In this document: positions 1 through 17,493 of the stretch, one piece after another
How positions within the stretch are numbered: the stretch's first letter is position 1
How the letters are laid out: each line of letters begins with the position of its first letter
Assembly (NCBI GenBank): GCA_023458215.1
Contig: JAEXAJ010000141.1
Coordinates: 1-23,485, forward strand
DNA: 23,485 bases
Origin: Bacteroidota bacterium
Lineage (GTDB): Bacteria > Bacteroidota > Bacteroidia > Bacteroidales > Bacteroidaceae
Direction: 5' to 3'
Made by a program: the position numbers and the translations under genes
Notes under the pieces: generated by a model
Database searches by the model: none
What the model was told of the DNA's origin: nothing
The model's input: the letters and a program-made list of their open reading frames with translations, nothing else

Positions 1-502
1 CTGCATTGGGCAGGTATCGACATAGTAATTGAGTGTGAGTGCTTTTACCGGTTCCTGATCCACCAAGATATAAAAAAGCATTATTATGATATAAAATAGA
101 AGATGAATGTATAGCAACCGTTTCCAAATCGGCCACTGAGAAGTTAAAAGCAATCCATAATGCATAACGCAATAGCTCGGGAACTAAGCAACCTTTTATT
201 ACACAAGCTCTATCTTGATTATCATATAACAAAGAAAGCTTCAATTCATTCCCTTGTTTTATTTCCAATCCGTTTCCGTTGCCTGTGTGATACAACAGAC
301 ACAGTGCGATTGGAGTTCTCACATTGTAGAACTTTACCCCTTCTATAGGGTTCGGTTCGCTGTTGCTTATTTTTACATTAGCCACAAAGTCCTCACAAGA
401 TTCACAGCGAAACTCCGAAAATCCTTGAATTGATTCCATTACCTCTGAAGTATCGCACTCTATGCGGATTACGTGATCTGCTATTTTATAATATTGCTTC
501 AT
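1..502 (-). CDS. HprK-like serine kinase / PEPCK-fold ATPase (3' end cut by window edge)
   Basis: Translating the minus strand from the ATG at 500-502 gives an open frame of 167 residues that runs off the left edge. Near its end is a P-loop, GGSGTGKST (about residues 147-155), preceded by AIHSSSILYHNNAFLYLGG. That layout of a His-containing strand followed by the P-loop matches HPr kinase/phosphorylase-like proteins. The first 120 residues form a poorly conserved N-terminal domain, as in small HprK homologues of peptide clusters. The start lies 3 nt beyond the PqqD-like stop, so the two are co-translated. HprK-like kinases in some lasso-peptide clusters (PadeK of paeninodin) phosphorylate a C-terminal Ser of the precursor; a similar job on the 56-residue peptide at 1779-1949 is inference. 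The catalytic Asp and C-terminal half lie outside the window. The alternative is a metabolic HPr kinase, which the context makes less likely. Confidence 0.75.
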   Translation of the reverse strand, partial: MKQYYKIADHVIRIECDTSEVMESIQGFSEFRCESCEDFVANVKISNSEPNPIEGVKFYNVRTPIALCLLYHTGNGNGLEIKQGNELKLSLLYDNQDRACVIKGCLVPELLRYALWIAFNFSVADLETVAIHSSSILYHNNAFLYLGGSGTGKSTHTQLLCRYLPNA

Positions 503-505
503 GTA

Positions 506-775
506 TTACAATTCAATAATTCCTTCTTCAGACAATATCTTAATCCACCATTGCAAATTCTTTCTTATTTGCTCTGAATCACCTTCATAATGGTCTATCA
601 GTAGGGAAAAAGCATCTTCCTCGGTGAAAGTGATACTTTGTAACTGTTCCCAAAGCCATACCGAAGTTTTGTTAAACGATATAATTCTTGTCATATCCAC
701 TTCATTGCCTCTCATCAAAAAAATGAATTTTCTTTTGGAAATAGTCTGCAATTTAAATTCTTTTTTGATAAACAT
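506..775 (-). CDS. PqqD-like peptide-binding protein (RRE domain)
   Basis: This 89-residue protein has the length and pattern of the PqqD family: N-terminal beta strands (residues about 5-35), then FNKTSVWLWEQL (about 34-45), an acidic helix leading to LLIDHYEGDSEQIRKNLQWW, and a final LSEEGIIEL. In PqqD and lasso B1 proteins this winged-helix fold (RiPP recognition element) binds the leader of a precursor peptide and presents it to modifying enzymes. It sits between a fimbrillin-family lipoprotein (25-nt gap) and the HprK-like kinase (3-nt gap), in the same operon as a candidate precursor peptide. It is a stand-alone domain, not fused to an enzyme. Family assignment is fairly sure; the partner peptide is inferred from location. 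Confidence 0.78.
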   Translation of the reverse strand: MFIKKEFKLQTISKRKFIFLMRGNEVDMTRIISFNKTSVWLWEQLQSITFTEEDAFSLLIDHYEGDSEQIRKNLQWWIKILSEEGIIEL

Positions 776-800
776 AATTTAATTTGATGCTACAAATAGA

Positions 801-1757
801 CTAATTTACGAAACTTAGTGTACCACTATTTCCACTACCTTCTGTAAAAGTTAGCTTTAAGTGAATATTATAAATCTTTCCTGGAGTAAATACACTTTTT
901 GGAGTGTATTCCACTGGACTCGAATAATCCACGTTATTAGAATCTCTCCAATGTATGGATAAAGATACTCTTTTAATACCATCTGAAATAGTTTGTTTGA
1001 TTGGTACCCAATAATAATAAGAACTATTATTATTGATTTGAACCTGACCACTGAATCCGGCAGTGGCCACTTCCGAATATTCGTATGTTTCAACCTCCAA
1101 GTTGTCATTCCAAAATATATAACTACTAAATGCCTTTGTCTTATCTGATATTGTAAAATTTACATTACTTAAATAACGTCTGTTAGTCATACCTGTTAAT
1201 GTAAAGTTCTCAATATCTACACGAACTTTAGCTAGTGCTGTTACCTGCGCCAAAAGGAAAGAAGGCATTGTTCCATCTGTGGGTGAAATACGCTGCTGGG
1301 TGGAAACAAGCCAATTGTGATTTGCTAAATGGTCGGTATTGTTGCTTCCACTGATATTTGCATGCATGTTAAACACTTCATTTACTCCATCATACACTTC
1401 TACCGAAGCATATGGATACACCACTTTATAGGTTTCTCCTGCTGTCAGATAGTCTTCAGCTCCCACCCCTCTGAAATAGGCGGAAACCTCTCCGGCACCC
1501 GATTCCAATACAAAACGTTTGTAGTCACTACGTCCGCTACCATTTACATGAAACACGGCTATTTCGTCTCCTACTGCCCATTTCACGGAGTTTGTATTCA
1601 CATCCGTAACCGTTCTTGAATCCGCATCTGTTGTTACATCCGCACCTATTTTGATTTTTGTAATCTTGGTTTCATTTTCTTTTTGCGGTTCCGTTTCCGA
1701 AGTGCAGCCCGTTGCCAGCAAAACAATGACCAAGCCTAATAATAATTTTGTTTTCAT
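801..1757 (-). CDS. Fimbrillin-family (Mfa-like) outer-membrane lipoprotein
   Basis: This 318-residue protein starts with a lipoprotein signal peptide and lipobox LATGC (Cys18), followed by SETEPQKENE. The mature part begins with a strand-rich region containing SRTVTDVNTNSVKWAVGDEIAVFH, the typical opening of Bacteroides fimbrillin/Mfa-like proteins ('W..GD.I.VF'). It ends with SPVEYTPKSVFTPGKIYNIHLKL, the usual last beta-strand region ('F.PGK.Y.l.l'). Such proteins are surface-exposed lipoproteins or pilus subunits. A strong Shine-Dalgarno sequence (AAGGAGA, 1763-1769) lies 5 nt before the ATG, which supports this start. The gene sits 21 nt after a 56-residue peptide gene and 25 nt before a PqqD-like gene. 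Finding a fimbrillin inside a peptide-modification and capsule operon is odd; its role there is unknown. Confidence 0.85.
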   Translation of the reverse strand: MKTKLLLGLVIVLLATGCTSETEPQKENETKITKIKIGADVTTDADSRTVTDVNTNSVKWAVGDEIAVFHVNGSGRSDYKRFVLESGAGEVSAYFRGVGAEDYLTAGETYKVVYPYASVEVYDGVNEVFNMHANISGSNNTDHLANHNWLVSTQQRISPTDGTMPSFLLAQVTALAKVRVDIENFTLTGMTNRRYLSNVNFTISDKTKAFSSYIFWNDNLEVETYEYSEVATAGFSGQVQINNNSSYYYWVPIKQTISDGIKRVSLSIHWRDSNNVDYSSPVEYTPKSVFTPGKIYNIHLKLTFTEGSGNSGTLSFVN

Positions 1758-1762
1758 AAAAT

Positions 1763-1769
1763 TCTCCTT
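1763..1769 (-). promoter_or_regulatory. Strong Shine-Dalgarno of the fimbrillin-family gene
   Basis: The minus strand reads AAGGAGA five bases upstream of the ATG at 1757. Most genes in this operon lack a clear Shine-Dalgarno sequence, so this one may give the lipoprotein stronger translation than its neighbours. Confidence 0.6.
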
Positions 1770-1778
1770 TCTATTTTA

Positions 1779-1949
1779 TTACCAACTACCATTTCCCCAT
1801 TGTTGAATTGTAACGGGATCATTATGACCTGACGTAGCATATCCTTTTTCTACTTCTACATCAATAACATTTACCTCCATCGGTTCAAAAACTTCTTTTT
1901 TCACTTCTTGGATTTCATTCTGATTTTGTTTTACTTCTTCCTTTTCCAT
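1779..1949 (-). CDS. 56-residue candidate modified-peptide precursor
   Basis: The 171-nt minus-strand frame from ATG 1947-1949 to TAA 1779-1781 fills the gap between the nucleotidyltransferase and the fimbrillin gene, with 21 nt on each side. The product opens with a Lys/Glu/Gln-rich part (MEKEEVKQNQNEIQEVKKEV). It continues with a beta-like stretch, FEPMEVNVIDVEVEKGYA, and ends in a short tail, TSGHNDPVTIQQWGNGSW (residues 39-56). Charged leader plus small Gly/Ser/Trp tail is the shape of a ribosomal-peptide precursor. The neighbours support this: a PqqD-like leader binder, an HprK-like kinase and a nucleotidyltransferase. It has no signal peptide, no double-Gly leader and no Cys, so lanthipeptide or class II bacteriocin types are unlikely. 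Small peptides of similar flavour also occur next to fimbrillin genes in Bacteroides, so it may instead relate to the lipoprotein. The frame is clear; the function is inference. Confidence 0.7.
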   Translation of the reverse strand: MEKEEVKQNQNEIQEVKKEVFEPMEVNVIDVEVEKGYATSGHNDPVTIQQWGNGSW

Positions 1950-1970
1950 AATTCATTGTTGTTAAATTAG

Positions 1971-3098
1971 TTACTGTTTTACTAAAAGCTTGTTTTTGCA
2001 TTTCTTTTTGAACCATACAATTATAGTCCTACATAATCGTTCGGGTAAATATTCTTTTTTAAATAAATCATACACCCACTGGTTATGATAGAAGCGTTGC
2101 CATCTACAATACAAAGTGTTTTTTTCTATCTCTTTCGACCCTGGAAAATGCCTGAATAAGCTGTTTACAAATTTTGCATTGATTTGCTCTCTATCCCCCT
2201 TCTTATAGAAAGACGGGGCAAATTCAGCCGGCATTCCTATATAACGGATAGCTATGTCTGTCATCATCAAACACAGCAATTTGAAATTCATCTTGTCAAG
2301 CGCCTGTTCTATTCTTCTCTCGTTATACTTCCCTTTATTGGCTGCCAAAAAGCAAGCCCAATCACACACATGCCTCACGACTAATTCTTTTCCTAAGTGT
2401 GAGCCGGTATGCATGATCATAAATAAAAAATTGAATGTAGCAGAAGGAACGCGAATGCTGTAACGATCCAAATACTGTTTTTTATCTTCTTTCAGGATCT
2501 CATGCAGGATCCATTCCATAAATTGAAAAGCCTCTTTCCTTTTTTTACAGAAAATATCAGAGTCACCAATCAAATCAATAAACATCTTATGATTTTCCAC
2601 CAGAATGCCTTGAAATATAAATGCCGAATGCTTTTCTACCTCTTTGACCGGAATCCCCTGCTTCCTTAAGAGAGAATCTCCTTTGCTATGATTCCCGAAC
2701 AAGTAAATATCAATATCTCCATATTCCCTATATTCAGGTATCGGATAACAGTCAGCCAATGCACACCCTTTAAGCAGCAACAACTCCATGCCTTCAGCCG
2801 CAAAGAGAGTATCTAGCTGACTTACAATCTCCATATTTCGCAAGCTTTTCTCTTTTGCCAATGCGGTATTTGCAGCCCAAGACAATAAAAGCTTTTCATC
2901 AGGCTGCATACTTTCCGGTAACCGTGAAACGCCTCCAAAAGCCAGGCTTCTCACTCCTTGCTTGCCCGAAAGACGATATACCTCCAGCCACTCTTCGCCC
3001 GAAAGATTACCATAGTCTATATTCGGAGAAACATCCCAAAGTGAGATCTTCAGCAGATCTAACAATACATTTTGGGTGAGAGAACATTCCTTAGCCAC
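1971..3098 (-). CDS. Nucleotidyltransferase-family protein (PF14907-like)
   Basis: This 375-residue protein carries the nucleotidyltransferase core LLLLKGCALADCYPIPEYREYGDIDIYL, with Lys-Gly at about 110-111 and the metal-binding pair in GDID (Asp128, Asp130). This is the pattern of the NTP_transf_5 family, in which a Lys-Gly strand precedes the GDxD motif. The N-terminal 100 residues are helical. It starts with GTG at 3096-3098; no ATG lies between the wzc stop (3105) and residue 64, and GTG gives a 6-nt gap, so I keep it. Relatives occur in lasso-peptide and other ribosomal-peptide clusters, where they are thought to modify the product. It could instead transfer a nucleotide to part of the polysaccharide machinery, since it follows wzc directly. 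The substrate is unknown. Confidence 0.78.
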   Translation of the reverse strand: MAKECSLTQNVLLDLLKISLWDVSPNIDYGNLSGEEWLEVYRLSGKQGVRSLAFGGVSRLPESMQPDEKLLLSWAANTALAKEKSLRNMEIVSQLDTLFAAEGMELLLLKGCALADCYPIPEYREYGDIDIYLFGNHSKGDSLLRKQGIPVKEVEKHSAFIFQGILVENHKMFIDLIGDSDIFCKKRKEAFQFMEWILHEILKEDKKQYLDRYSIRVPSATFNFLFMIMHTGSHLGKELVVRHVCDWACFLAANKGKYNERRIEQALDKMNFKLLCLMMTDIAIRYIGMPAEFAPSFYKKGDREQINAKFVNSLFRHFPGSKEIEKNTLYCRWQRFYHNQWVYDLFKKEYLPERLCRTIIVWFKKKCKNKLLVKQ

Positions 3099-3104: not shown

Positions 3105-5543
3105 CTATTTGTGTTTAAAAGTTATTCTCAGGTATTTCCTACAGAACCGTTTAAATCTAGTATCTTTATGATGTTCAGTTCCATAATGGTAATAATAATA
3201 TCCATAGTTATACCTATAACTATAAGCCATCCTCTGATAATCTACCCCATTGAGCACAATACTCAAATTCTTTATTTTATTTGAATTATACAATTCTTGC
3301 AGATCAGGAAGCAAACGTTTATCGAACATACCCGAACGTATTACATATATAGAATGATCTGCCACACGTGAGCATACAAAAGCATCTACCACCAAGCCGT
3401 AAGGTGGATTATCAAACAAGATATAATCATATTTAAGTTTCAGTTTCTCCAGCATATCATCCAACCTGCCATCTTTTAACAATTCTGCAGGATTAGGCGG
3501 AATTGGACCGGAAGAAATCACATCAAATGGTTCACAAGGAGTATCAATAGCATATATCACAGCGTCGACATCAGTAACCTCACCTGATAAATAGTTAGAA
3601 ACACCTTTTCTCTTAGTACCAATTCTCAATCTTCTGGTCAAAGATGCTTTTCTTAAATCAAGATCGAGCACAATGACCCGCGCCTTCGAAAGAGCAATAT
3701 TCGCAGCAAGATTGATAGAAATAAATGTTTTGCCTGATGATGGATTTAGCGAAATCAATTGAATAACTTTACCGCCTTGTTCCAAATTGTCATGATTCAT
3801 AAAGTTCAAGTTCTCACGAATAATCCTCAATGCCTCATTCAAGTATTCATGAGCGGATTCATTCGAAAGCATAATATCTCTATCTTCCATCACTTTATCA
3901 AATGGAAGTTCTCCCAAGAAAGGAATTGAAACTTTATCCTTTATATCCTCCTTCAAGTAGACATAGGTGTTAAGCAACGATTTGAGGTATAGCCATAAAG
4001 AAGGTATTGAAAATCCGACAATCAGGCAAATCAATATTACTTGTATCTTGTTTGGTGAAACGGGTGATATCGGACCGTCTGCTGTATCTACTATTTTGCA
4101 GTTACTTTCTGTAATAGTCTGTTGCAACTCGTTTTCCTCTTTCTTGTTCAGCAAATAGAGGTACAATTCCTCTTTAATCTTTTGTTGTCGCTCTATACCA
4201 ACGATCTGTTTTTGTTGAGTGGGTAGATCGGCAATCTTATCAAACGTTTCTTGCTCTTTGATTTTCATGTTCATCACTTGAAGTTTCAAAGAAGTTTGCA
4301 AATTATCAATTGCTCTGATAATGGCATTCCGACATGATTTCAATGTAGCATCCATATCTTTTATCAACGGGTTCCGTTCACTGCTGTTGGCCAGCAACTT
4401 GTTTCTTTTGGACACTTGCTCGTTATAATCTATAATTTGTGCCTGAATACCATTATCTTGAATGCCGATGCTGGCAGGTATCATCTCAGAGTACCTGTTG
4501 TTTCTCAATAGATATGCCTTCATATATTCTGCCATATTGAGTTGGTTATCCAAGCTCAGCCCATCGTTATCCAACTTATTTGAATTACTAAGGAATACAT
4601 TGCTTTCCGAAGTCAAATCTGTCAGCCTGTGTAACTTCTTGTAATTTTCGATTTCAGAATCCACCACATTCAAGTCCACTTCTATTTTTTGCAGGCGCTC
4701 TTCAATGAAGCTAGCTGTATTAATTGTAATAAGATTTTTATCCTTGATTGCATCCTGATTGTAAACATCAATCAGCGTATTCAGTATATCTTCCGCACGC
4801 TTGGGATTTTCGTCGATAATCGAAAGATTAATCAATGAAGATTGGGTTCCGGATACTTCTACATTCAGCCGATGGCAGAATCCGTTTGAGATGTTCTTCA
4901 TCGGGTTCTTGCTGACCTGCATTTCATACAAAGCATCATTCTTTGTTATATTCGGATTTAACTCTACAATAATATGCCCCACCGGAGTATCTATCGTATC
5001 CCCAATTTGTGCACTAATTTTCTCATCGTATTCCTGTTCTCCAACTAAATCTGATAATTCCACTATTTTACCATTTTTCAGAGTAACCATCATACTTATG
5101 CTTTGACTTTCGTCAGCATCTATAAACTCCACAGTTATTGGAGATGTCAGATACATGTCTGTTTTCTTTAAGTTCAATGCACGATAGTTGATGTTCAAAT
5201 GTAATTTTTCAGCTACCAGACGCATTAATCTTCTACTTTTGAATACCCCAACCTCATTCTCTACTGAGTTTCGTCCTATCGAGAAGATGTCCTCAAAAGT
5301 TTGAGATTCCACCATTCCACTTCCCTTCTGAACATCTTTTATCATGATGGTTGCGGTACGCATATATTGTTTGGGGGTAGAACGGATATAATAATAACCT
5401 ATAGTTAGGCTTATGGTTAAGCAAATTATAAACAAAACTTTGTTTCTTAGTAAAATCGCCCATGCATCGGCCAGTAAAGCCGATTCCGGTTCACGCTTAT
5501 TTTTTATGTCAATCAGATCGTAATCTTCAAATTTATGGTTCAT
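3105..5543 (-). CDS. wzc: Polysaccharide co-polymerase and tyrosine autokinase (Wzc type)
   Basis: This inner-membrane protein of 812 residues controls chain length and export of capsular polysaccharide. Its parts in order are a short cytoplasmic start, a first transmembrane helix (about residues 33-50, VLFIICLTISLTIGYYYI), a Wzz-type periplasmic domain with long coiled coils (about 240-480), and a second helix near 505-525 (IQVILICLIVGFSIPSLWLYL). The C-terminal BY-kinase domain has Walker A NPSSGKT (about 600-606), Walker A' VIVLDLDLRK (about 623-632), Walker B ILFDNPP (about 708-714), and a Tyr cluster MAYSYRYNYGYYYYHYG (about 772-788) that is autophosphorylated. A basic tail of some 24 residues follows the cluster, which is unusual. 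The gene lies 18 nt after wza and 6 nt before the nucleotidyltransferase. Membrane and kinase parts are fused, as is normal in Bacteroidetes and proteobacteria. Confidence 0.93.
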   Translation of the reverse strand: MNHKFEDYDLIDIKNKREPESALLADAWAILLRNKVLFIICLTISLTIGYYYIRSTPKQYMRTATIMIKDVQKGSGMVESQTFEDIFSIGRNSVENEVGVFKSRRLMRLVAEKLHLNINYRALNLKKTDMYLTSPITVEFIDADESQSISMMVTLKNGKIVELSDLVGEQEYDEKISAQIGDTIDTPVGHIIVELNPNITKNDALYEMQVSKNPMKNISNGFCHRLNVEVSGTQSSLINLSIIDENPKRAEDILNTLIDVYNQDAIKDKNLITINTASFIEERLQKIEVDLNVVDSEIENYKKLHRLTDLTSESNVFLSNSNKLDNDGLSLDNQLNMAEYMKAYLLRNNRYSEMIPASIGIQDNGIQAQIIDYNEQVSKRNKLLANSSERNPLIKDMDATLKSCRNAIIRAIDNLQTSLKLQVMNMKIKEQETFDKIADLPTQQKQIVGIERQQKIKEELYLYLLNKKEENELQQTITESNCKIVDTADGPISPVSPNKIQVILICLIVGFSIPSLWLYLKSLLNTYVYLKEDIKDKVSIPFLGELPFDKVMEDRDIMLSNESAHEYLNEALRIIRENLNFMNHDNLEQGGKVIQLISLNPSSGKTFISINLAANIALSKARVIVLDLDLRKASLTRRLRIGTKRKGVSNYLSGEVTDVDAVIYAIDTPCEPFDVISSGPIPPNPAELLKDGRLDDMLEKLKLKYDYILFDNPPYGLVVDAFVCSRVADHSIYVIRSGMFDKRLLPDLQELYNSNKIKNLSIVLNGVDYQRMAYSYRYNYGYYYYHYGTEHHKDTRFKRFCRKYLRITFKHK

Positions 5544-5561: not shown

Positions 5562-6344
5562 TTATTTAAAAATCAGTACAGACAAAGATACAAGAACAGA
5601 GATGATAGAGGCAAAAGTACCTATCGTACGGTTCTGATTTATCTCTCGTTGTCCGGCTCTTGCTTTATTAGGTTCCACATAAACTACATCATTCTGTTGC
5701 AGAAAATAATAAGGAGACGAGAATATCTGTTTGCTTCTTAGATCTAACGAAGCAACTGTCCGTTTCCCATTTTCTTCACGAATAACTTTCACATTTTCCC
5801 GTTTTCCATAAATCGTTAAATCGCCCGCCATGCTAAGTGCCTCCAATACGGTAATTCTTCCTGACGAAGCATTAAAAACACCTGGTCTGGCTACCTCTCC
5901 CATTACTGAAACATTGAAATTCATATATTGCGCCGTTACTACAGGATCATTAATGTATCCACCGGTTATTATCTTATTTTTAATTAAAGCCGATAGCTCT
6001 ACCAACGATAATCCTTTCACCTCAATAGCTCCTAACTGTGGAAAGTCAATACATCCTTTTTCATCCACCAGATAACCCGAAATTCGATTTGTTCCACCAG
6101 AGGCAATGCCATTTCCGGTCAGCGAGTTGGTAATTACGGGCAGGTTAAACATTTGCGCCAGTTCAAAGTCTTTACTGCTTATCAAGATAGAAATCCAGTC
6201 TCCCGGCCTTACTACACCGCCCTGTTGTATTCCTACTTCCGACGAGTAAGTATCGGGAATATCCTGAAAATAACTTATTTTTTTTTGAGACACACACGAA
6301 GTGAACAGTGCTATTACGAAGAATGGAAATATAAATCGTTTCAT
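5562..6344 (-). CDS. wza: Outer-membrane polysaccharide export lipoprotein (Wza type)
   Basis: This 260-residue protein has a lipoprotein signal with lipobox LFTSC (Cys17). A polysaccharide-export domain follows (about residues 45-130, with VRPGDWISILISS and GYLVDEKGCIDFPQLGAIEVKGLS), then an SLBB domain (about 145-225, with NVSVMGEVARPGVF and the ending LQQNDVVYVEPNKA). A C-terminal hydrophobic helix (about 241-260) takes the place of the alpha-barrel helix of E. coli Wza. The short length is normal for Bacteroidetes. It forms the outer-membrane channel partnered with Wzc, whose gene starts 18 nt downstream. The 77-nt spacer upstream (6345-6421) is the largest within this half of the operon and could hold an internal promoter, but I see no convincing element there. 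Confidence 0.92.
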   Translation of the reverse strand: MKRFIFPFFVIALFTSCVSQKKISYFQDIPDTYSSEVGIQQGGVVRPGDWISILISSKDFELAQMFNLPVITNSLTGNGIASGGTNRISGYLVDEKGCIDFPQLGAIEVKGLSLVELSALIKNKIITGGYINDPVVTAQYMNFNVSVMGEVARPGVFNASSGRITVLEALSMAGDLTIYGKRENVKVIREENGKRTVASLDLRSKQIFSSPYYFLQQNDVVYVEPNKARAGQREINQNRTIGTFASIISVLVSLSVLIFK

Positions 6345-6421: not shown

Positions 6422-7570
6422 TTAATGATTGAAATAAGCTACAATCTTAGAAAGTATTATTTCTGATGCTTGCCCGTCTCCAAACAAATTGAAAAAAGCG
6501 ATATTACGGGCTAATAATTCATTATAAGCACTTATTATTTTACTTTCGTCAGCATCAACTAAAATTCCTGCTTTATTATTTATAATTTCCACCCATTCTG
6601 TTTCACCTCTTAGTATGATACAAGGTTTTTCAAAAAAGAAGGCCTCTTTTTGAACACCACCCGAGTCAGTTATTATCATATAAGAATTTTTCTCCAAGCT
6701 AATCATATCCAAGTAAGAAACGGGAGGAATAATAAGCAATTTATCAGACTCCTGAATCTTGTTTTTCATTTCTTTCGACAGATTTGTCTCAATCTGTTTA
6801 AATGTCCGCGGATGAATTGGTAAAACCACCTTCGTATGAAATTCCTGAGAAATATAAATCAGCGCATTAAAAATAGCCGAAAGACGTGCACTTGAATCCG
6901 TATTATTATCACGATGAATGGTCGTTAAAACATATTTTCCCGGAGTTAATTTATTCTTAGAAAGTATTGTGCTCTTTACATCAGCAATTGCGGCATAATA
7001 CACACTATTATCATACATTATGTCACCACTGTTACAGATTTCTCTTTTCCTTCCTTCACTAAAGACAGCCGGAGAGTCTTCATACCCTTCCTTCCTCAAA
7101 TTACCGACAGCCGTGCAAGTCGGTACAAATAAAATTGAAGATAATTGGTCGCACACAATCCTGTTCACCTCTTCAGGCATATCCATATTATACGAACGTA
7201 GTCCGGCCTCTATATGAAAGATAGGAATATGCAATTTAGAGGCGGCAATAGCACCTGCTAATGTTGAGTTCGTATCACCATATACAATAACACCATCCAT
7301 TTTATTTTCTAAAAGAACATTCTCAATACCTGATATCATTTTTGCAGTTTGCTCTCCATGTAATCCGGATCCGATATTCAGATTGTAATCCGGTAATGGA
7401 ATACCCAATTCATCAAAAAAGATCTGAGACATATTCGCATCATAATGCTGTCCTGTATGTAATATCTTCTCGACTATTATATTTGTAAATCCATTTTTAA
7501 TAGTGCGAGATATTGCCGCTGCCTTTATAATTTGGGGACGAGCGCCTATTATTGTCAAAAGTCTAATCAT
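6422..7570 (-). CDS. wecB: Non-hydrolysing UDP-HexNAc 2-epimerase, WbpI-like
   Basis: This 382-residue protein interconverts UDP-GlcNAc-type and UDP-ManNAc-type sugars in the cytoplasm. It shows the family signatures GARPQ (residues 9-13), HTGQH (38-42), GDTNSTLAG (98-106), HIEAGLRS (119-126), PEEVNRIVCD (132-141) and TDSGGVQKEAFFFEKPC (301-317). The GARPQIIKAA start and the TEWVEI stretch resemble the WbpI branch (UDP-2,3-diacetamido-glucuronate 2-epimerase) more than classical WecB, which begins GTRPE. The enzymes that would make a diacetamido-uronic acid substrate are not in this window, so the substrate is undecided. The ATG overlaps the stop of the DUF354 gene (ATGA at 7567-7570), which implies translational coupling. 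Enzyme class is sure; the wecB symbol is a family label. Confidence 0.9.
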   Translation of the reverse strand: MIRLLTIIGARPQIIKAAAISRTIKNGFTNIIVEKILHTGQHYDANMSQIFFDELGIPLPDYNLNIGSGLHGEQTAKMISGIENVLLENKMDGVIVYGDTNSTLAGAIAASKLHIPIFHIEAGLRSYNMDMPEEVNRIVCDQLSSILFVPTCTAVGNLRKEGYEDSPAVFSEGRKREICNSGDIMYDNSVYYAAIADVKSTILSKNKLTPGKYVLTTIHRDNNTDSSARLSAIFNALIYISQEFHTKVVLPIHPRTFKQIETNLSKEMKNKIQESDKLLIIPPVSYLDMISLEKNSYMIITDSGGVQKEAFFFEKPCIILRGETEWVEIINNKAGILVDADESKIISAYNELLARNIAFFNLFGDGQASEIILSKIVAYFNH

Positions 7571-8667
7571 TGGAACTTGTATTGATAAGATGGATTATTC
7601 TGAATAGTGATTTTACTTTCCGGATAGTTTTCTATAAACCAAACCAAAAAGGAAGTCACATTAATTTTATCTCTCAACATTATCAACCTCCTTCTCTGAA
7701 ACTCTTCTTTTAGGTTCAGAGTAGAAAGCAACTCATTTGCTTTTAGCAGTAATTCTTTCGTTTGATTTGTCTTAATACCTAAAGTCAGTTTATAAACATG
7801 TTCCAATTCTTCCAACACGCTAATTCTTCCGGCAAAGTCGCTGAATCTAATAGATGGAACTCCCAGCATAGCTGCTTCTACAGACATGCTTTGGCTATCT
7901 GATATCAAGAGAGAAGAGTAATACATAACATGATGGATATCGTTATAACGTATCTTCAACTGATAAGATCTTAATCTTTCATCTAATTCTTTTTCAGAGC
8001 TGATATAGACAACGTATCCGCTATCTTTTGCTAAATTGATAAAATCCAATATCACATCTATGTTAAGACCATTCACATCGGTATCATGATATGCAGTAAG
8101 TTGCGCCAGCCTAACCAAGCAATATTTACATTCAACTATATATTTCTTTTTGACTTCAATATTAGGAGTAAAGAAAGATGGATGCAGATAGGCTAGTTTC
8201 ATATAGCCATAATACGAAATCTTTTTGTCTTCCCACTTTCCTACCCGACATACGGAAGGGACGACTATTGAATCACTATAAGGAAAGGTTACATTAGCCA
8301 GTTTTTTTATAATTTCAATATCATCTTCGAGTACGGTAATACCCGGTATATGCAATATTTTAGAAACTTGAGCAATAGAGGCATCCCCTCCAACCATCAA
8401 ATCAGGTTTATATTTTCGAGCAATATTAAAGACCTTAATAGTTCTGGCTAATGACGCCCATGCTATCGAAGCAAAATTATTTTTCCTAACTTTCTTTTGT
8501 ATGTTCTCATAATCGTACCCCCATTCACATACCAATTCTTCCAGAATATCTTTTGTTTTTAAAAGAATTTTTATTTGGCAACCATCTTTTTGGAGCTGTT
8601 CAATGATATATTTAAAAAAATGGAATTGTGCAGGATGCCCTAAATACAACAATATTCTCTTATTCAT
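7567..8667 (-). CDS. DUF354-family protein with GT-B-like fold
   Basis: This 366-residue protein matches the DUF354 pattern: an N-terminal RILLYLGHPAQFHFFKYII ('GHP.h..f.k.ii'), then KPDLMVGGDASIAQVSKILH and the acidic pair VLEDD (about residues 133-137). Toward the C-terminus it has SLLISDSQSMSVEAAMLGVPSIR (about 254-276), the nucleotide-sugar-binding half of a GT-B/UDP-GlcNAc-epimerase fold. These proteins occur in polysaccharide clusters, but their reaction is not firmly established; a glycosyltransferase or hydrolysing epimerase is possible. Its stop overlaps the start of the WbpI-like epimerase by 4 nt, so the two probably act in the same step or on the same sugar. It starts 11 nt after the second OmpA-domain gene. 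The family call is good; the function is open. Confidence 0.8.
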   Translation of the reverse strand: MNKRILLYLGHPAQFHFFKYIIEQLQKDGCQIKILLKTKDILEELVCEWGYDYENIQKKVRKNNFASIAWASLARTIKVFNIARKYKPDLMVGGDASIAQVSKILHIPGITVLEDDIEIIKKLANVTFPYSDSIVVPSVCRVGKWEDKKISYYGYMKLAYLHPSFFTPNIEVKKKYIVECKYCLVRLAQLTAYHDTDVNGLNIDVILDFINLAKDSGYVVYISSEKELDERLRSYQLKIRYNDIHHVMYYSSLLISDSQSMSVEAAMLGVPSIRFSDFAGRISVLEELEHVYKLTLGIKTNQTKELLLKANELLSTLNLKEEFQRRRLIMLRDKINVTSFLVWFIENYPESKITIQNNPSYQYKFQ

Positions 8668-8678
8668 AAGTTTTCCAC

Positions 8679-9920
8679 TTAAGGTAATATCATAAACTCA
8701 ACGCGTCTGTTCACACTTCGTCCCTTGTCCGTACTATTTTCAGCCCTGGGGTTCAACTTGCTGTAATATGAATAAACCATTCTGTCATAATTTACCCCTT
8801 TATCATTCAAGTATGCCATTACGGCTTTAGACCTTCGTTCGGACAAACCATAATTATAATCCACCGAACCTTTCACATCCGTATGTCCCATTATCAACAG
8901 CCCAATGTCGGGACTATTCAGCATGAGCGTGGCCAGTTTGTCAAGATACAAAGCAAATTCGGGTTTAATGTCGCTCTTGTCAAAATCGAAATGTACCATT
9001 TCGATGCCGCAAAGTCTTTTTCCTCTGATCGATTTCCCTTGCTCTACCAATTGCAACAATTCATCTATATCATAACATTCGGGGTCAGCGGCTCTGTTTG
9101 TAGGCGTTTCCTGAGGAGAGGCTGCTACCTGTTCAGGCACAGTGACATTCTTTTCGGGCAATATCATTGGGTACGCATTGATATAGACCAATTCCTTCTT
9201 ACAAGGCTTTTGAGCTGGAATCGTATAACGCACACCTACAAGTGCAGTAGTCAGGATATCTCCAATCACCTCCGACTTACTATCACTACACACTTGTCCG
9301 TTGTATTTGTTACTCAATCTATTGATATTGAATTCAAAATTCACATCAATATTTTTATAAACTACTTTTGAAACTTCCACACCTCCATAAATTGCAAAAT
9401 TATCTCTAGGCACAGGATTCAACCATTCGTAATTCTTAACAGTTTCATCCAACTCATACGAAGAACTATGAATGAACCCAACACCCAACTTTAATTCCAC
9501 ATTCCATTTCTTTTCCATTCCTACGATTCTGTTCATCCGGATAAAATTAGAAAAATTGAATGTTCCCTCCGCTATAATTCCGTAATGACGGAATGCAAAC
9601 AAAGGGCTATTCTTGTCGTGATCGTAGTAAACTCCTTTATCACTCCCATACAAGAATTGAAGCCTTGAACCCCACATTGGAGTGAATCTCTTCCCTACCG
9701 CAAAAGCATACGAAGGAGTCAGCATCTTGCTCATACTTACAAATCGTGTATTCTCGGCTGCCAGATAATTCACTCCGCCCTGCACCTGATAATACCACTT
9801 CTCATTCCAATTGTACGAAGTACGAACCGTATCCTGAATCCCATCTGTTGCATAACTCTTGGCTATTGCAAACAGGGAGAGAGCTGCAAATGTCAATAAC
9901 GTTTTATTTAATTCTTTCAT
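8679..9920 (-). CDS. OmpA-domain outer-membrane protein with intact peptidoglycan-binding site
   Basis: This 413-residue protein has a signal peptide (about residues 1-24, cleavage near SYAT-D), an eight-strand-like beta-barrel part (about 40-235, ending VGVRYTIPAQ) and a Pro/Thr-rich linker (about 250-280). Its OmpA C-terminal domain (about 305-413) has FDFDKSDIKPE, GHTDVKGS (Asp348) and LSERRSKAV (Arg363). The Asp and Arg are 15 residues apart, as are Asp271 and Arg286 of E. coli OmpA, which bind diaminopimelate. It also ends with the canonical NRRVEFMILP. It should tether the outer membrane to peptidoglycan. It is a tandem paralogue of the gene 22 nt upstream (9943-11157). Sitting in a polysaccharide operon, it may anchor the export complex or the surface polymer; that is inference. 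Confidence 0.9.
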   Translation of the reverse strand: MKELNKTLLTFAALSLFAIAKSYATDGIQDTVRTSYNWNEKWYYQVQGGVNYLAAENTRFVSMSKMLTPSYAFAVGKRFTPMWGSRLQFLYGSDKGVYYDHDKNSPLFAFRHYGIIAEGTFNFSNFIRMNRIVGMEKKWNVELKLGVGFIHSSSYELDETVKNYEWLNPVPRDNFAIYGGVEVSKVVYKNIDVNFEFNINRLSNKYNGQVCSDSKSEVIGDILTTALVGVRYTIPAQKPCKKELVYINAYPMILPEKNVTVPEQVAASPQETPTNRAADPECYDIDELLQLVEQGKSIRGKRLCGIEMVHFDFDKSDIKPEFALYLDKLATLMLNSPDIGLLIMGHTDVKGSVDYNYGLSERRSKAVMAYLNDKGVNYDRMVYSYYSKLNPRAENSTDKGRSVNRRVEFMILP

Positions 9921-9942
9921 AATCTATCGAAGATTAGTACTT

Positions 9943-11157
9943 TTACAACGGCAATATTCCGAACTCAACCGCTTGTTTTAAGTCAGTTGCGTCATGTTCT
10001 TGTCCCGACAGTTCTATATATTGATACGTCAGTCTGTCTCTTGCTATTCCATGCTTTAGCAGATAATCTCTCACCGCATTCATTCGCTGTTCTGTCAGGC
10101 TATTATTCATCACAGGCTCACCCTGCATCGAGAAACCTTTTATCACCAAAACAAGGTTGGTCTTATTCAGCAACTCCACCACCTTATCCAGATAAATAGA
10201 AGCAAATGGCTTTACATTACTTTTCCCATAATCAAAAAACACGCGTTCGCTACTTGCCAACAACTTTCCGCGTATAGACTCTCTATTATCTACCTTTTCC
10301 AACAAATCTTCGATGCTATAATATTCTTCGGTTTTTGCAGGGAGTATCAAGGAGCGTTCATTTACAACAGCCGGCCGTTCGCTCGTTTCACTCTTTACAA
10401 TAGGTTGTATTGTTCGATCTCCCGTATTCACGCTAACCGTTTTCATTCTATGTTTTTGCCGGGTGCTGTTAAAAGTATAGCGCACTCCAACCAATAAATT
10501 CACCAATCCGTCTGCTTTGAATATTGAGCTTGTGGTAGCCTTCTGTCCGTTATAACGATTGTTCATCCAGTTGGTGCTCAACTCCGCATTCACCTCCCAC
10601 TCCGGTGACAAACGCCTGGCAACTTCCACACCTGCATACACAGACAAGTAAACATAATTATTATAATCCACATCATGCAATAGTGCATCTGCAGGAACTT
10701 TGAACGCGGTATATAAAGCTCCTAACCCGAACAATGCACTTACCTCCCAATGATTCGTGTTCCATTTCTTCTTTTTGAGATTCAGGAATTCAGTAAGATT
10801 AAACGTTCCTATACCCAAGAAACCGTAATGCCCGAAAGAATACGCCGGGCTGTTTTTATCATTTGCATAATAAACGCCTTTGTCATCACCGCCGGTAATT
10901 TGCAGGCGCGCTCCCCACACCGGATTAAACCGTTTGCCCAGCGCTATTGAGAGTTGCGGTGAAAGCACCTCCCAGAAATTTACAAAACGAGTGTTTTCCG
11001 CAGCGTTATAGTTTACGCCTCCTTGCAGTTGCAAGTACCACTCTTCATCTTGTCTGTATTTCGTTCGAACAGAGTCATTGCCACTTTGGGCAGCATATCC
11101 TTTAGCCGATAGAATAAATAAACCGAATGTAATCAATACGAATATTCGTCGCTTCAT
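9943..11157 (-). CDS. OmpA-like outer-membrane protein with degenerate C-terminal domain
   Basis: This 404-residue protein has a signal peptide (about 1-22), a beta-barrel region (about 38-230) and an OmpA-like C-terminal domain (about 303-404). It is clearly paralogous to its downstream neighbour: LQGGVNYNAAENTRFV matches VQGGVNYLAAENTRFV, and GVYYANDKNSP matches GVYYDHDKNSP. In the C-terminal domain FFDYGKSNVKP is kept, but the GHTD motif has become GFSM (341-344), so the peptidoglycan-binding Asp is replaced by Met. The LSERR motif is LTEQR, which keeps the last Arg (358), and the terminal NRRVEF is KQAVEF. It should be a membrane protein with weakened or lost peptidoglycan binding. It lies 11 nt after the GT4 gene and 22 nt before the intact copy. 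Confidence 0.85.
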   Translation of the reverse strand: MKRRIFVLITFGLFILSAKGYAAQSGNDSVRTKYRQDEEWYLQLQGGVNYNAAENTRFVNFWEVLSPQLSIALGKRFNPVWGARLQITGGDDKGVYYANDKNSPAYSFGHYGFLGIGTFNLTEFLNLKKKKWNTNHWEVSALFGLGALYTAFKVPADALLHDVDYNNYVYLSVYAGVEVARRLSPEWEVNAELSTNWMNNRYNGQKATTSSIFKADGLVNLLVGVRYTFNSTRQKHRMKTVSVNTGDRTIQPIVKSETSERPAVVNERSLILPAKTEEYYSIEDLLEKVDNRESIRGKLLASSERVFFDYGKSNVKPFASIYLDKVVELLNKTNLVLVIKGFSMQGEPVMNNSLTEQRMNAVRDYLLKHGIARDRLTYQYIELSGQEHDATDLKQAVEFGILPL

Positions 11158-11168
11158 TGTTTTTAATC

Positions 11169-12098
11169 TTAATTTCTTGTTTTACCTACTTCATTATAAA
11201 TAGCTTGGATTCTTTTTGCCACTACCGATAAATCCAATCCCAATTGAATCACTCTATCCCGTCCGTTAGTCTTTCCCTCAAAAGCCAATGCTTGCAGCAA
11301 TTTATCGGCAATGGCTTGTGGCTCTCTTTTCGCAATGAAACATCCTTCCGTTTCCGAAATCACTTCTTTTACATCCCCCACATCCACACTTACTATAGGA
11401 CATCCACACAACATAGCTTCTTTAATAACCATTGGAGATGCTTCCCTGTCCGAAGTCATCAGAAGACAATCGCAAGCATTCATCAATACATTCACTTCTG
11501 CTCTGTTGTATCCTTCCAATTCCACCAACCGGCAATCCTTTAAAAGCGATACAGCCTTTTCGGCCAATTCACTATTCTTCACTGCATTTTCAAACGCACC
11601 GGCAAACAAGATGTATTTATCATTTTCCCGCCAGCCTAAGCTTTGGCGCGCTTCTTGTTTTGAAAATATATAAAAGTTACTTATATCTGTGCCACAAGGC
11701 TGTATTACATGGTTTTTCTTTTTGTAACCGGCCATTTGACAGATTCTCTTACTTACAAAAATATTGAAAGCAGATAACCGCATACAAATGCGCGACAACT
11801 GCAAAAGAACCCCTTTGGAATGCACGTCACTACCATGAAAAGTAGTAATCACAGGCACTTTCCTTTGAAGATTGGCGAGCAGTCCTGACAAACCGTAGTG
11901 GGCATGAATAATATCCGGTTTGTAAGCCTCTATCTTATGTACCAGTGAATGCCGGCATTTCAGATAGCCCGTTATTCCTTTCTCTGATATTCCATAATAA
12001 TCAAACTCGACACCCAAGCGAGATAAGGACTTGACTTGTTCTTGTACAAAAGGAGAAAGACTTCCGGTGGTATTACTTGCTACAATTAAAACTTTCAT
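11169..12098 (-). CDS. GT4-family glycosyltransferase (GT-B fold)
   Basis: This 309-residue protein resembles retaining GT4 transferases. Its N-terminal half contains KPDIIHAHYGLSGLLA and VITTFHGSDVH, the acceptor-side motifs of the family. The C-terminal half has the donor-binding motif DREASPMVIKEAMLCGCPIV, with the expected E-x7-E pair, followed by VSVDVGDVKEVI. It is somewhat shorter than most family members (350-400), but both domains are present. It is cytoplasmic and adds one sugar to the lipid-linked repeat unit. It lies 30 nt after the Wzy-like gene and 11 nt before the first OmpA-like gene. Donor and acceptor cannot be told from sequence. Confidence 0.9.
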   Translation of the reverse strand: MKVLIVASNTTGSLSPFVQEQVKSLSRLGVEFDYYGISEKGITGYLKCRHSLVHKIEAYKPDIIHAHYGLSGLLANLQRKVPVITTFHGSDVHSKGVLLQLSRICMRLSAFNIFVSKRICQMAGYKKKNHVIQPCGTDISNFYIFSKQEARQSLGWRENDKYILFAGAFENAVKNSELAEKAVSLLKDCRLVELEGYNRAEVNVLMNACDCLLMTSDREASPMVIKEAMLCGCPIVSVDVGDVKEVISETEGCFIAKREPQAIADKLLQALAFEGKTNGRDRVIQLGLDLSVVAKRIQAIYNEVGKTRN

Positions 12099-12128
12099 TG
12101 TTAAGCAATATGTAAAATTAAAACTTAT

Positions 12129-13469
12129 TTATCGTAAATTCCATAACAAGCAAATTCCTAAGATACCGACAAAATAAACATACTGCATTTTATTGGATAT
12201 CTTGAAAGATAATTTATCATAATCGTGTTTAGCCAGAAACCAAAAAGAAACGATATACATCATTGCTAAATGAGGCATTGACAAACGGGTCTCTAAACCT
12301 TTCACACTAATCGCTACACCAACCGCATTTATCAAGAAAAACACAACAAACGGATAAGCTTTCACATGACGTTCTTTAATAATGAAATAAGTGCCTAAAA
12401 AGAATGGGACACATAACAAAAAGCGATACAGTAAACCTGAAGCATAAAGCGATGTCTTCGATAATGATTTTACTTTTATTGATGGAAAAGGTCCGACCAA
12501 TGCAGCTAACGGATCAGCTAATTGATTTACGAATCCCCCTTCTCCTGCTAATTCATTTTTCCGTTCAACTATTAATTCTACATTGCCCCCCCTTAAATAC
12601 CTATCAAAAGTATAAGCAAACAAAGAGGTTGAACAAAGAACTAATGATAGAAGAACTATCAATACAGCAGCTGTAGTTCCTTTCACATAAAGCAATACAT
12701 ATGTAATTCCAAATGTAGCAATTAATAATAAAGACGTTGGTATTCTGAATAATAAAACAAGCAAAGAGAATAAAAAAGTTAACACTAAATATTTTTTTTC
12801 TCTCTTTCTAATATAAGTCATAAAGCAACTAAACGAAGACATAATAACAGCAATCATGAAAGTTTCTTTCAAACATACAGAATAGAAAACAGTAATAAAA
12901 GAAGCTAATGAAAAACTCAAAGCTGCAATAAATGCATATCGGCGTGGTAAGAGGTTTCTTCCGATATCAAATACTAATAAGGCAGTAATGGTACCGATAA
13001 TACAGTAACAGAAATACAAAAAGATCAAAGATGGTATTATTCTAAAGACCATAGAGATTCCAATGAAAGCCCCCACATCATCTATTCCATATCCCAATAC
13101 ATCTGTTGCATAATTGTACCCATCTATAAACGACATGTTTGCCATCTTCATTGCTACCGTATGATAGATTAATCCGTCTCTTTTTGAGAAAAGAAAAATA
13201 TCTCCATCAATCGTATATGAAACTAATCCCCATATAATAACCTCTACTACTGAAATGATTAGAACTATTAATGCTAAATTACGTTTTGTATAAAACGAAT
13301 TAGTCATCAAAGTAGATCGATATATAGTAATGCCGTACAGGACAAATGTTGTAAAAGAAGCAAGATATATCCATATAAAATTAGGATTACTAATTATTAA
13401 AGCGGTAAACACTGTAAACAAAATAGCACCTAAATATAGATATGCCCTATTTATCATCTGTAATAGCAT
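12129..13469 (-). CDS. Polytopic membrane protein, likely Wzy-type polysaccharide polymerase
   Basis: This 446-residue protein is strongly hydrophobic, with roughly eleven or twelve predicted transmembrane stretches. Examples are the first 45 residues, LALIVLIISVVEVIIWGLVSYTI, YVLLYVKGTTAAVLIVLLSLVL and the C-terminal YVYFVGILGICLLWNL. A larger polar loop of about 60 residues (near 285-345, YLRGGNVELIVERKNELAGEGG) is present, as in O-antigen/capsule polymerases, where a periplasmic loop takes part in catalysis. Wzy proteins have little sequence conservation, so the call rests on topology, size and position between the deacetylase and a glycosyltransferase in a cluster that also has Wzx, Wza and Wzc. 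It is the only candidate polymerase in the window. A second Met at residue 5 is an alternative start. Confidence 0.72.
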   Translation of the reverse strand: MLLQMINRAYLYLGAILFTVFTALIISNPNFIWIYLASFTTFVLYGITIYRSTLMTNSFYTKRNLALIVLIISVVEVIIWGLVSYTIDGDIFLFSKRDGLIYHTVAMKMANMSFIDGYNYATDVLGYGIDDVGAFIGISMVFRIIPSLIFLYFCYCIIGTITALLVFDIGRNLLPRRYAFIAALSFSLASFITVFYSVCLKETFMIAVIMSSFSCFMTYIRKREKKYLVLTFLFSLLVLLFRIPTSLLLIATFGITYVLLYVKGTTAAVLIVLLSLVLCSTSLFAYTFDRYLRGGNVELIVERKNELAGEGGFVNQLADPLAALVGPFPSIKVKSLSKTSLYASGLLYRFLLCVPFFLGTYFIIKERHVKAYPFVVFFLINAVGVAISVKGLETRLSMPHLAMMYIVSFWFLAKHDYDKLSFKISNKMQYVYFVGILGICLLWNLR

Positions 13470-13489
13470 GGTCTGAACATATTAAATGG

Positions 13490-14365
13490 TCAACAAGATG
13501 TTTTACGAATAAAAGAGGTCAACGGTTTATAATATTTCCCCATAAATAATTTTAAAGCTATAAATTTCAAAGAGCCACAACTCAGACCATACCGAGGTAT
13601 TGCATAAACATTATCAGATTTAGATATATTATGAGCTTCTGTAGAAAAAGCCAGTTGAACTGAAGTTTCTCTTAAAATACTCATTTCACGTCTACCAAAA
13701 TCCCTGATGGGAGTACCATTGGGATAAGCAAACGTGCGAACAGGGTGTTGCAGTTCTACTTCTAATAGGGCTATAGACTCTTTTATTTCTTTCACTGCCC
13801 TTTCTTCACTTTCGTTAGCCAAGAACGGATGGAGCATGGTATGTGCACCAATTTCAACTAACCCCTCTCTATCTATTTGCTGAATTTGTTGTATAGTCAT
13901 GTTTTGAGGAGTTTTGGGTGCTACATTACACTCGGATTGATATCTTTTTATTATTTTCCAGATATCATCTAATGATAACTTATTCAAATTTGATTTCAAC
14001 GAAAGTCGATTATCATAAGTCAAAGCTGTTTCTGTTGCAAACAGCTTTTTCATTTTTAAAGAATTATAATCGGATATTTCCTGAAACCAAAAGTTTACAG
14101 TCCCCTTTCTTTGAGCAATTAAGGGAGAAACAAAGAAAATTGACGGTATATTGTGTTTTTTTAGTATTGGGTATATTGTTTCATAGGATGATAAATGCCC
14201 ATCATCAACAGTTATTAAACAAGCATTATTCAACTTGGCATCATTATAATAAAATTCATACAGTTGATTAATGCTAATCATTTGATAGTTCTTTTTCAAA
14301 TATGTCACTACTTGCTCAAACCAATCAGAATCGTGTACTTCATGGAAGTTAATAACTTTACTCAT
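13490..14365 (-). CDS. NodB-domain polysaccharide deacetylase
   Basis: This 291-residue protein has the NodB metal-dependent deacetylase motifs in order: TVDDG (residues 52-56, with the catalytic-base and metal Asp pair), HTMLH (175-179, the metal-binding H-x3-H), and RTFAYPNG (210-217). No signal peptide is visible, so it would act in the cytoplasm, on lipid-linked intermediates or sugar precursors, unlike secreted chitin or peptidoglycan deacetylases. An insertion of about 90 residues separates motifs 1 and 2. Its ATG overlaps the acyltransferase stop by 4 nt (ATGA, 14362-14365). Acetyl addition and removal are thus encoded by coupled genes. It could also act on an N-acetyl group of a HexNAc residue. 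Confidence 0.87.
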   Translation of the reverse strand: MSKVINFHEVHDSDWFEQVVTYLKKNYQMISINQLYEFYYNDAKLNNACLITVDDGHLSSYETIYPILKKHNIPSIFFVSPLIAQRKGTVNFWFQEISDYNSLKMKKLFATETALTYDNRLSLKSNLNKLSLDDIWKIIKRYQSECNVAPKTPQNMTIQQIQQIDREGLVEIGAHTMLHPFLANESEERAVKEIKESIALLEVELQHPVRTFAYPNGTPIRDFGRREMSILRETSVQLAFSTEAHNISKSDNVYAIPRYGLSCGSLKFIALKLFMGKYYKPLTSFIRKTSC

Positions 14366-14877
14366 CGTTCTTCTATTTTATATAAAACTTTAGCTGGACA
14401 ACCTGCCACAACTGTCCAGGCGGGTACGTCTTTGGTGACCAAAGCTCCAGCTCCGACAACTGCACCTTCTCCTACCGTCACTCCCGGCATTATCATTGCA
14501 CCCATACTAATGCAACATCCCTTTTTTAACACTACCGGAGCTAAAATAAAGGGCAAATCCTTATATCTTTCTTCAGCATAGTATACTTTCATATTTCGAC
14601 GGTGGCATAGAATCAGACAACGAGATGCTATCCATACATCATCCTCTATAGTTATCAATTTTGCATTATCTACATCATAATACACATCCAGACCAATTGA
14701 CACATTTTTGCCAACATTACACCCCGTTACTCTCCACAGAACACTCCGTTTAAGAACAATATTCAAATAAAACAGTACAACACCGTTACGTGCTCTATTC
14801 GCCAGAAACCAGTACCATAGTTTCTTTACATGTTTGGGGATATGACTAATTTTATTAACGATATAATTAAAGTTCAT
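14362..14877 (-). CDS. Left-handed beta-helix (hexapeptide) O-acetyltransferase
   Basis: This protein of about 171 residues has the hexapeptide-repeat ending of the LbetaH acyltransferase family: NVSIGLDVYYDVDNAKLITIEDDVWIASRC, CHRRNMKVYYAEERYKDLP, then GCCISMGAMIMPGVTVGEGAVVGAGALVTKDVPAWTVVAGCPAK. The catalytic His is probably in LILCHRRNM. It resembles acetyltransferases that modify sugars of surface polysaccharide. I take ATG 14875-14877 as the start (MNFNYIVNKIS), 4 nt after the pyruvyl-transferase stop. An in-frame TTG at 14898 would add seven residues and overlap the upstream gene, which is less likely. Its stop overlaps the deacetylase start. Confidence 0.87.
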   Translation of the reverse strand: MNFNYIVNKISHIPKHVKKLWYWFLANRARNGVVLFYLNIVLKRSVLWRVTGCNVGKNVSIGLDVYYDVDNAKLITIEDDVWIASRCLILCHRRNMKVYYAEERYKDLPFILAPVVLKKGCCISMGAMIMPGVTVGEGAVVGAGALVTKDVPAWTVVAGCPAKVLYKIEER

Positions 14878-14881
14878 AGCA

Positions 14882-15973: not shown

Positions 15974-15975
15974 TA

Positions 15976-17427: not shown

Positions 17428-17493
17428 TTATTTATTATAATTTCTTATTAAAGCCACGTACTGCGATATTACAAACATAATTCTTTGTTAAAT

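Follow-up and report, generated by a model that had tools for sequence, protein, structure and literature searches.

We analysed a stretch of 23,485 nucleotides (nt) from a Bacteroidaceae genome (contig JAEXAJ010000141.1 of assembly GCA_023458215.1; hereafter the window), in which a peptide-modification module lies at the 3′ end of a capsule operon. On a single strand (minus), wza and wzc are accompanied by genes for a nucleotidyltransferase (NTase), a 56-residue peptide, a lipoprotein, a PqqD-like protein and a truncated HprK-like kinase. Based on this gene content and its conservation, the pairing of peptide and lipoprotein genes, the linkage to Wza-Wzc, the intact catalytic motifs and the absence of a lasso cyclase or B2 protease nearby in relatives, we propose, with a probability of roughly 0.7, that the module makes a ribosomally synthesized and post-translationally modified peptide (RiPP) similar to the linear polyphosphorylated peptides (LPPs) of Bacillota. 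On the cell surface the peptide would work alongside its lipoprotein and the polysaccharide that is exported. LPPs were described from the lpp cluster of Paenibacillus alginolyticus (Popov et al., PMC13381572, Nat Commun May 2026), and all statements on them below are limited to the available part of that report.

An earlier note, made from the letters of this DNA alone, had placed five genes after wzc in one operon with gaps of 3-25 nt. This description holds: the genes share one strand and the gaps downstream of wzc are 6, 21, 21, 25 and 3 nt, successively. The closest complete relative, locus L064 in genome G201, has the order Wza-Wzc-NTase-peptide-lipoprotein-PqqD-HprK-S26-ABC, with protein identities to the window of 53-73% (40% for the HprK fragment). 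Because L064 carries an S26 peptidase and an ABC exporter after HprK, we predict both (about 150 and about 550 residues, respectively) to the left of window base 1, next to the rest of HprK.

The same note had seen in these genes a module of lasso-like accessory enzymes beside Wza/Wzc, and had suggested looking for conserved co-occurrence with wzc in Bacteroidales genomes. Such conservation is found, in L064 and well beyond it. Among loci of at least 14 kb, chosen by NTase, PqqD or precursor rank rather than at random and including near-copies (for example L065/L066, L068/L069 and L231/L232), Wza-Wzc is adjacent in 20 of 39 loci with both PqqD and NTase, compared to 0 of 16 where only PqqD is present, 3 of 18 where only the NTase is, and 0 of 13 with neither. 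One set of 20 regions comprises five picked for close NTase and PqqD matches (L214-L218) and 15 taken by NTase rank with context ignored (L219-L233). In 12 of these 15, PqqD, NTase, HprK, Wza and Wzc stand in a row (with one inserted gene in L229). The gene preceding PqqD encodes a Bac_transf sugar-phosphate transferase in all ten tested of those 12, and also in L012. Nine of the 12 have a short open reading frame (ORF) with a Y..P leader 21-425 nt after wzc, in each case with a lipoprotein gene next; in two more the precursor lies farther off, and in L229 no precursor was found. The capsule-linked form often has the order sugar transferase-PqqD-NTase-HprK-Wza-Wzc-precursor-lipoprotein.

A model built on the nine capsule-linked precursors recovers the first precursor family (best E 6e-7), and for this reason the leaders of both sets look homologous. 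Among loci retrieved through matches unused in the precursor model, 8 of 20 have the full PqqD-NTase-HprK-Wza-Wzc operon. In the NTase tree (50 rows, midpoint-rooted, gain and loss not distinguished), the window and L064 form a supported clade (100/100) nested in a branch whose cassettes lack capsule genes; the main capsule-linked clade (100/99) lies elsewhere. With two separate capsule-linked NTase branches, the capsule linkage of the module has therefore evidently changed more than once.

The 56-residue peptide itself is conserved at the amino-acid level. A search of a 5.8-billion-protein set gave nine candidate relatives, all nine of them homologues, with a mean column identity of 73%, and comparison with the nearest genomic relative gives a dN of 0.21 and a dS of 1.04 (one pair). 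On these grounds we take the peptide to be a real gene. The invariant positions among the relatives include M1, E34, G36-Y-A-T-S40-G, P45, I48, W51, G54 and W56, and the E, K, G and S of E34-K-G-Y-A-T-S40 are invariant across the 14 rows of precursor alignment A4. In the same protein set PqqD has nine relatives and the NTase 31, the latter reaching more distant ones.

With alignment A4 (14 sequences, E at most 0.01 per genome), precursors are found in 47 of 399 Bacteroidaceae genomes, with a maximum of 15 per genome; the joint alignment A10 gives matches in 62 of the 399 genomes at E 1e-4. Shuffled ORFs yield no match with the model of the first precursor family or with that of the nine capsule-linked precursors, viral contigs yield 41 pattern matches to the peptide alignment of which none was confirmed, and a scan of phage records returned no match. 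For most precursor matches better than about E 1e-5 the surrounding region was fetched. The distinct precursors number 103, and the Ser anchor fits 102 of them, as S in 95 and T in 7. The leader aromatic is Y in 100 and F in 2, a P is present in 100, and the distance from the aromatic to the Ser is 19 residues in 97. The residue at P+2 is hydrophobic (V in 79), and a pattern of E and V runs between the aromatic and the anchor. The tails are unconserved and rich in D, E and G (D+E 25.6%, K+R 2.8%), carry W in 58 precursors and measure 9-22 residues after the Ser in 87. Precursors can be multiplied within a genome. For example, G338 has 15 matches and G159 has 11, nine of which are repeated units of precursor and large protein over about 51 kb, with enzymes also inside (L114-L116). 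In addition, a protein of about 130 residues at L016:1252-1650, with MEKRNYVKPVINENIFQPSSFIAAS near its start, precedes a kinase-S26-PqqD-NTase-kinase-Wza-Wzc run and resembles a longer precursor.

Precursor genes directly precede a surface lipoprotein gene, and this pairing is new relative to the described LPPs. The earlier note had linked the peptide to a surface polysaccharide or its lipoprotein, and the counts support the tie to a lipoprotein. A same-strand gene of at least 150 residues lies within 700 nt of 87 of 105 precursors, and a lipoprotein signal, by a simple pattern, is found in 69 of these 87. When the follower starts within 170 nt of the precursor, the signal is present in 65 of 68, compared to 100 of 940 control genes drawn from these loci (Fisher 1e-52). 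The window lipoprotein has no Pfam match and is 73% identical to its L064 counterpart; a two-row profile of it aligns with the fimbrillin-like lipoprotein set over the first 158 residues (hhalign probability 96, E 3e-9). The partners in L003 (1e-16) and L131 (1e-14) match PF13149, Mfa_like_1, and the partner in L232 (5e-5) falls below the cut-off.

Around the peptide, the enzyme genes recur in varying order. PqqD lies no more than 8 kb from the NTase in 44 loci, a count that includes the window and some near-copies; of these, HprK is present in 43, S26 in 29 and ABC in 28 (within 12 kb). Both S26 and ABC are present in 22 of the 24 PqqD+NTase loci without Wza-Wzc. The order peptide-large protein-PqqD-NTase-ABC-HprK-S26 is found in L065-L069 (Bacteroidales), and other orders, some with no detected peptide, in L003, L011, L013, L074, L075, L079, L080 and L083. 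Separate arrangements were also observed. L200, L214 and L215 are capsule-linked cassettes in which PqqD is present twice, along with an ABC exporter. L020, L021 (uncultured Fibrobacter) and L022 have Wza-Wzc, a small ORF (131-132 residues) and an NTase, with PqqD not nearby. In the set L194-L213, 16 of 19 loci with a called PqqD ORF have an HprK-S26-PqqD trio without NTase, and in nine of these 16 the adjacent gene encodes a protein of about 150-200 residues that is probably exported and has a motif like VYMFGFGASFNDSxVYITDIQ.

The conserved motifs of the enzymes are intact. The NTase motif R-E-x-G-D-x-D is invariant in the 27 rows of alignment A3, N35 of PqqD in the 21 rows of A5, and the P-loop, NDD and GSPWSGK blocks of HprK in 15 of 15 full-length relatives (A6). 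The catalytic Ser33-His72-Asp88 of S26 is invariant in 16 of 16 relatives, the window's own predicted copy lying beyond its edge. The S26 protein resembles archaeal/SipW-type signal peptidases, and the PDB entries that its profile matches are signal peptidases and SEC11 (6e-5 to 1e-3). The two scanned ABC proteins have their best scores against models for PglK, type I secretion, CydD and MsbA, all below cut-offs. Against the PDB, PqqD profile A5 matches the lasso RiPP recognition elements (RREs) TfuB1 (2.9e-5) and 9x90, which is PbaB1 (0.2). A narrow PqqD profile gives chance-level matches only, the NTase profile no match at E 1, and the HprK profile nothing better than weak matches to P-loop proteins and PEP-carboxykinase (E 0.02 or worse). 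The window HprK fragment has no family match above a cut-off; its full-length relatives match weakly (L003 to HprK_rel_A, 2.8e-5; L016 to ScmC, 8e-9). Pattern matches to the PqqD alignment, 21 on genome contigs and 18 on viral contigs, include none that was confirmed.

We infer both the peptide chemistry and any polysaccharide attachment, by the following route. PqqD, as the RRE, would bind the leader through its aromatic residue and a hydrophobic strand; the HprK-like kinase would place one or more phosphates on the invariant Ser, which is S40 in the window; and the leader would be cut within G-Y-A-T-S by a Ser-His-Asp peptidase of the S26/SipW type, predicted immediately left of base 1. These three steps are established for Bacillota LPPs (PMC13381572). 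By the LPP register the cut would fall between Y37 and A38, or perhaps after A38 or S40, and the anchor Ser of the Bacteroidota precursors would correspond to LppA Ser3. Between phosphorylation and cleavage, the NTase may add a group to the Ser phosphate, most likely a hexose or a nucleotide, which is the least certain step. An MsbA/PglK-like ABC exporter, predicted at left, would then export a core of about 16-19 residues. Outside, the core may act with its partner fimbrillin-like lipoprotein and the polysaccharide exported by Wza-Wzc. A more specific version, which we regard as distinctly unlikely, makes the modified peptide a covalent or tight anchor between surface polysaccharide and lipoprotein: the kinase would place a phosphate on Ser, the NTase and polysaccharide sugar-phosphate chemistry would add a glycan, and the peptide would join or dock on the fimbrillin-like lipoprotein. 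If so, Bacteroidota would have a peptide-primed, lipoprotein-held capsule or exopolysaccharide.

Other explanations of the module have to be considered. Lasso clusters of the paeninodin/pseudomycoidin type have PqqD, an HprK-like kinase and an NTase as accessory genes (available parts of PMC7533575 and PMC9266682), and the earlier note had accordingly predicted an asparagine-synthetase-like cyclase and a B2 protease at the left. This prediction did not hold, since L064 carries S26 and ABC at that position and neither a cyclase nor a B2 protease is found near the cassette in 20 related genomes. Asn_synthase PF00733 has 49 matches in 19 of these genomes, all on another contig or more than 100 kb from the cassette, and they are AsnB-sized proteins or weak partial matches. 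For example, in G201 they lie at C1:401 kb and C3:668 kb, with the cassette at C3:1,274 kb. PF13471 (B2) has two weak matches in the 20 genomes, none above the cut-off and none near a cassette. We therefore reject a lasso cluster; a true one, with cyclase and protease left of the window or elsewhere, is extremely improbable. Alternatively, the kinase, NTase and PqqD could act mainly on the lipoprotein or the polysaccharide machinery, with the peptide serving as a leader that regulates the lipoprotein gene or couples its translation. The position of the peptide gene immediately before the lipoprotein gene would suit such a role. Nonetheless, the amino-acid-level conservation described above, a leader profile of the RRE-binding type with a conserved Ser/Thr, and the lack of profile matches in shuffled ORFs make it very improbable.

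A freely secreted LPP-like antimicrobial or signal, for which the capsule and lipoprotein linkage would reflect shared regulation or self-protection and no joint structure, is in agreement with the variable tails, with the up to 15 precursors per genome and with the ABC exporter in 28 of 44 cassettes. However, the pairing with a lipoprotein and the repeated wza-wzc linkage would be unexpected for a plain bacteriocin, and the tails are acidic, not cationic, so that we consider this explanation rather unlikely.

Several results weigh against a surface-acting, LPP-like RiPP, beginning with the non-random choice of loci and the near-copies behind the Wza-Wzc tallies. Twelve of the 20 out-of-sample precursor matches lie outside a wzc operon, although for several of these the contig is short. 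For 18 of the 105 precursors there is no gene of at least 150 residues within 700 nt, and 19 have only one beyond 170 nt. The window edge cuts HprK and leaves S26 and the exporter as predictions, and 12 of the 20 capsule-linked loci (cut window included) show no S26, so that S26 would be needed in trans. In 18 long loci the NTase has no PqqD nearby, and the Alistipes/Rikenellaceae loci show no cassette partner beside it; NTases without PqqD are thus common and the NTase alone is no marker of the module. Of the 399 genomes, 317 have a PqqD match and only 47 (A4) or 62 (A10) a precursor at the thresholds applied, with a few of the 47 expected by chance at E 0.01 per genome. The anchor pattern E.G[FYVIL]..[STA] forces those positions in the leader counts; Y and P are unforced, but the sequences came from a profile search. 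The window subfamily has FEPM or FEPL for YxxP, with the Pro one residue early, and its relative P0008 has no Pro. Relatives of HprK, S26 and PqqD match named NCBIfam families only below cut-offs, and LppB, the LPP RRE, is absent from the PDB matches of PqqD profile A5. Finally, LppN, the NTP transferase of the LPP cluster, had no detectable activity in a heterologous host (PMC13381572).

Table 1. Features of the window, with positions counted from its first base
Feature	Position	Strand	Basis
Wza-type polysaccharide export lipoprotein	5562..6344	-	Pfam Poly_export 3.3e-13, SLBB
Wzc-type chain-length regulator / tyrosine autokinase	3105..5543	-	Pfam GNVR 1.9e-13, AAA_31; NCBIfam eps_fam above cut-off
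NTP_transf_5 NTase, LppN/PsmN-like position	1971..3098	-	Pfam 5e-33
56-residue precursor peptide, leader F21-E-P...E34-K-G-Y-A-T-S40, two Trp in tail	1779..1949	-	Homologues, family profile, dN/dS
Codons E34-K-G-Y-A-T-S40: predicted cleavage region and predicted phosphorylated Ser40	1830..1850	-	Sequence; role by analogy with LppA S3 (PMC13381572, available part)
Fimbrillin-like surface lipoprotein, partner of the precursor	801..1757	-	Lipobox ATGC in translation; hhalign E 3e-9
PqqD-like RRE, LppB-like	506..775	-	Pfam PqqD 2e-8
HprK-like kinase, N-terminal 167 residues, 3′ end beyond window edge	2..502	-	P-loop GGSGTGKST; full-length relatives in alignment A6
Remaining capsule operon: epimerase, DUF354, two OmpA-type proteins, glycosyltransferases, polymerase-like protein, deacetylase, acetyltransferase, pyruvyl transferase, flippase	6422..18474	-	Pfam for ten genes
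OmpA-type outer-membrane protein within the capsule operon	8679-9920		Pfam
OmpA-type outer-membrane protein within the capsule operon	9943-11157		By eye

The polymerase-like protein of the capsule operon (Table 1) was assigned by eye and has weak matches only.

With a surface-acting, LPP-like module, a recently discovered peptide family of Bacillota would reach into Bacteroidota, in which it recurs and is multiplied in some genomes. The family would gain a testable surface partner, and with it candidates for what LPP-type peptides do and for the tie between surface lipoproteins and capsule or exopolysaccharide in Bacteroidales. Bacteroides hosts amenable to genetics allow a direct test.

The earlier note knew of no description of a linkage between such enzymes and a capsule operon. 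That statement is out of date, as LPP clusters were described in capsular polysaccharide loci of Bacilli in May 2026 (PMC13381572). In that report LPPs are stated to be restricted to Bacillota, with their biological role unknown, and the terms 'bacteroid' and 'fimbri' are absent from its main text. The literature searched, with most subscription papers and all supplements outside its reach, holds no description of a Bacteroidota form. The available text of a survey of Bacteroidales RiPPs (PMC10352776) has no mention of HPr, nucleotidyltransferase, S26 or fimbrillin, and none of the terms looked for was found in the available text of two RRE papers (PMC7470986, PMC12710340).

Two groups of known systems share part of the module. 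Lasso peptides of the paeninodin/pseudomycoidin type have in common with it PqqD (B1), the HprK-like kinase and the NTase, whereas in the 20 related genomes no macrolactam synthetase or B2 protease lies near the cassettes. In pseudomycoidin, attachment of hexoses to the phosphorylated Ser requires the NTase gene (PsmN), nucleotidylation not being excluded (PMC9266682, available part). HprK_rel_A (TIGR04352) and SynChlorMet ScmC (TIGR04249) share an HprK-like kinase, but scores are far under the curated cut-offs (23 vs 200 and 35 vs 125 bits). HprK_rel_A and ScmC systems also hold PqqD-type proteins. As for the partner, fimbrillin-like lipoproteins (PF13149) resemble those in L003 and L131, whereas most partners scanned, the window's included, have no match to this family, and many are 700-1100 residues long.

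The closest system is the LPP cluster, which consists of the precursor LppA, the RRE LppB, the HprK-like LppK, the SipW-like peptidase LppS, the MsbA-like export pump LppD and the NTP transferase LppN; LppK adds up to four phosphates to core Ser3, and LppS (S29, H68, D93) depends on LppB (PMC13381572). Both systems share a discrete RRE, an HprK-like kinase, an NTP transferase, a SipW-like Ser/His/Asp peptidase and an MsbA-like exporter. The set of SpI, RRE, kinase, NTP transferase and transporter is complete in L064 and in the 22 of 24 cassettes without Wza-Wzc, and the window's SpI and transporter, if present, lie beyond its edge. The Ser-His-Asp of SpI is found in all 16 relatives, and no macrolactam cyclase lies near the cassette in the 20 related genomes, the window's left side being beyond its edge. 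Location in capsule loci and an aromatic..P.V leader are also common to both, the distance to the Ser being 18 in LPPs and 19 in Bacteroidota. From the LPP motif YxxPxVLxHQxIxFETxxS the Bacteroidota family keeps YxxP, the hydrophobic P+2 and the Ser/Thr, although the window has F-E-P-M instead of YxxP. The rest differs, with EV.VEKG[FY]AxS in place of HQxIxFETxxS. Further differences are the phylum, a core of 9-22 residues after the Ser (87 of 102) compared to 45 in the LppA tested, the surface lipoprotein that accompanies the precursor, precursor matches that number up to 15 in a genome, and a capsule-linked form that often has no local S26 or ABC. By enzyme set and leader logic, the module thus appears close to LPPs, as a member or a relative. 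What is new is a large Bacteroidota branch, distinguished by its phylum, its lipoprotein partner, its scale and a wza-wzc linkage in two branches of the NTase tree.

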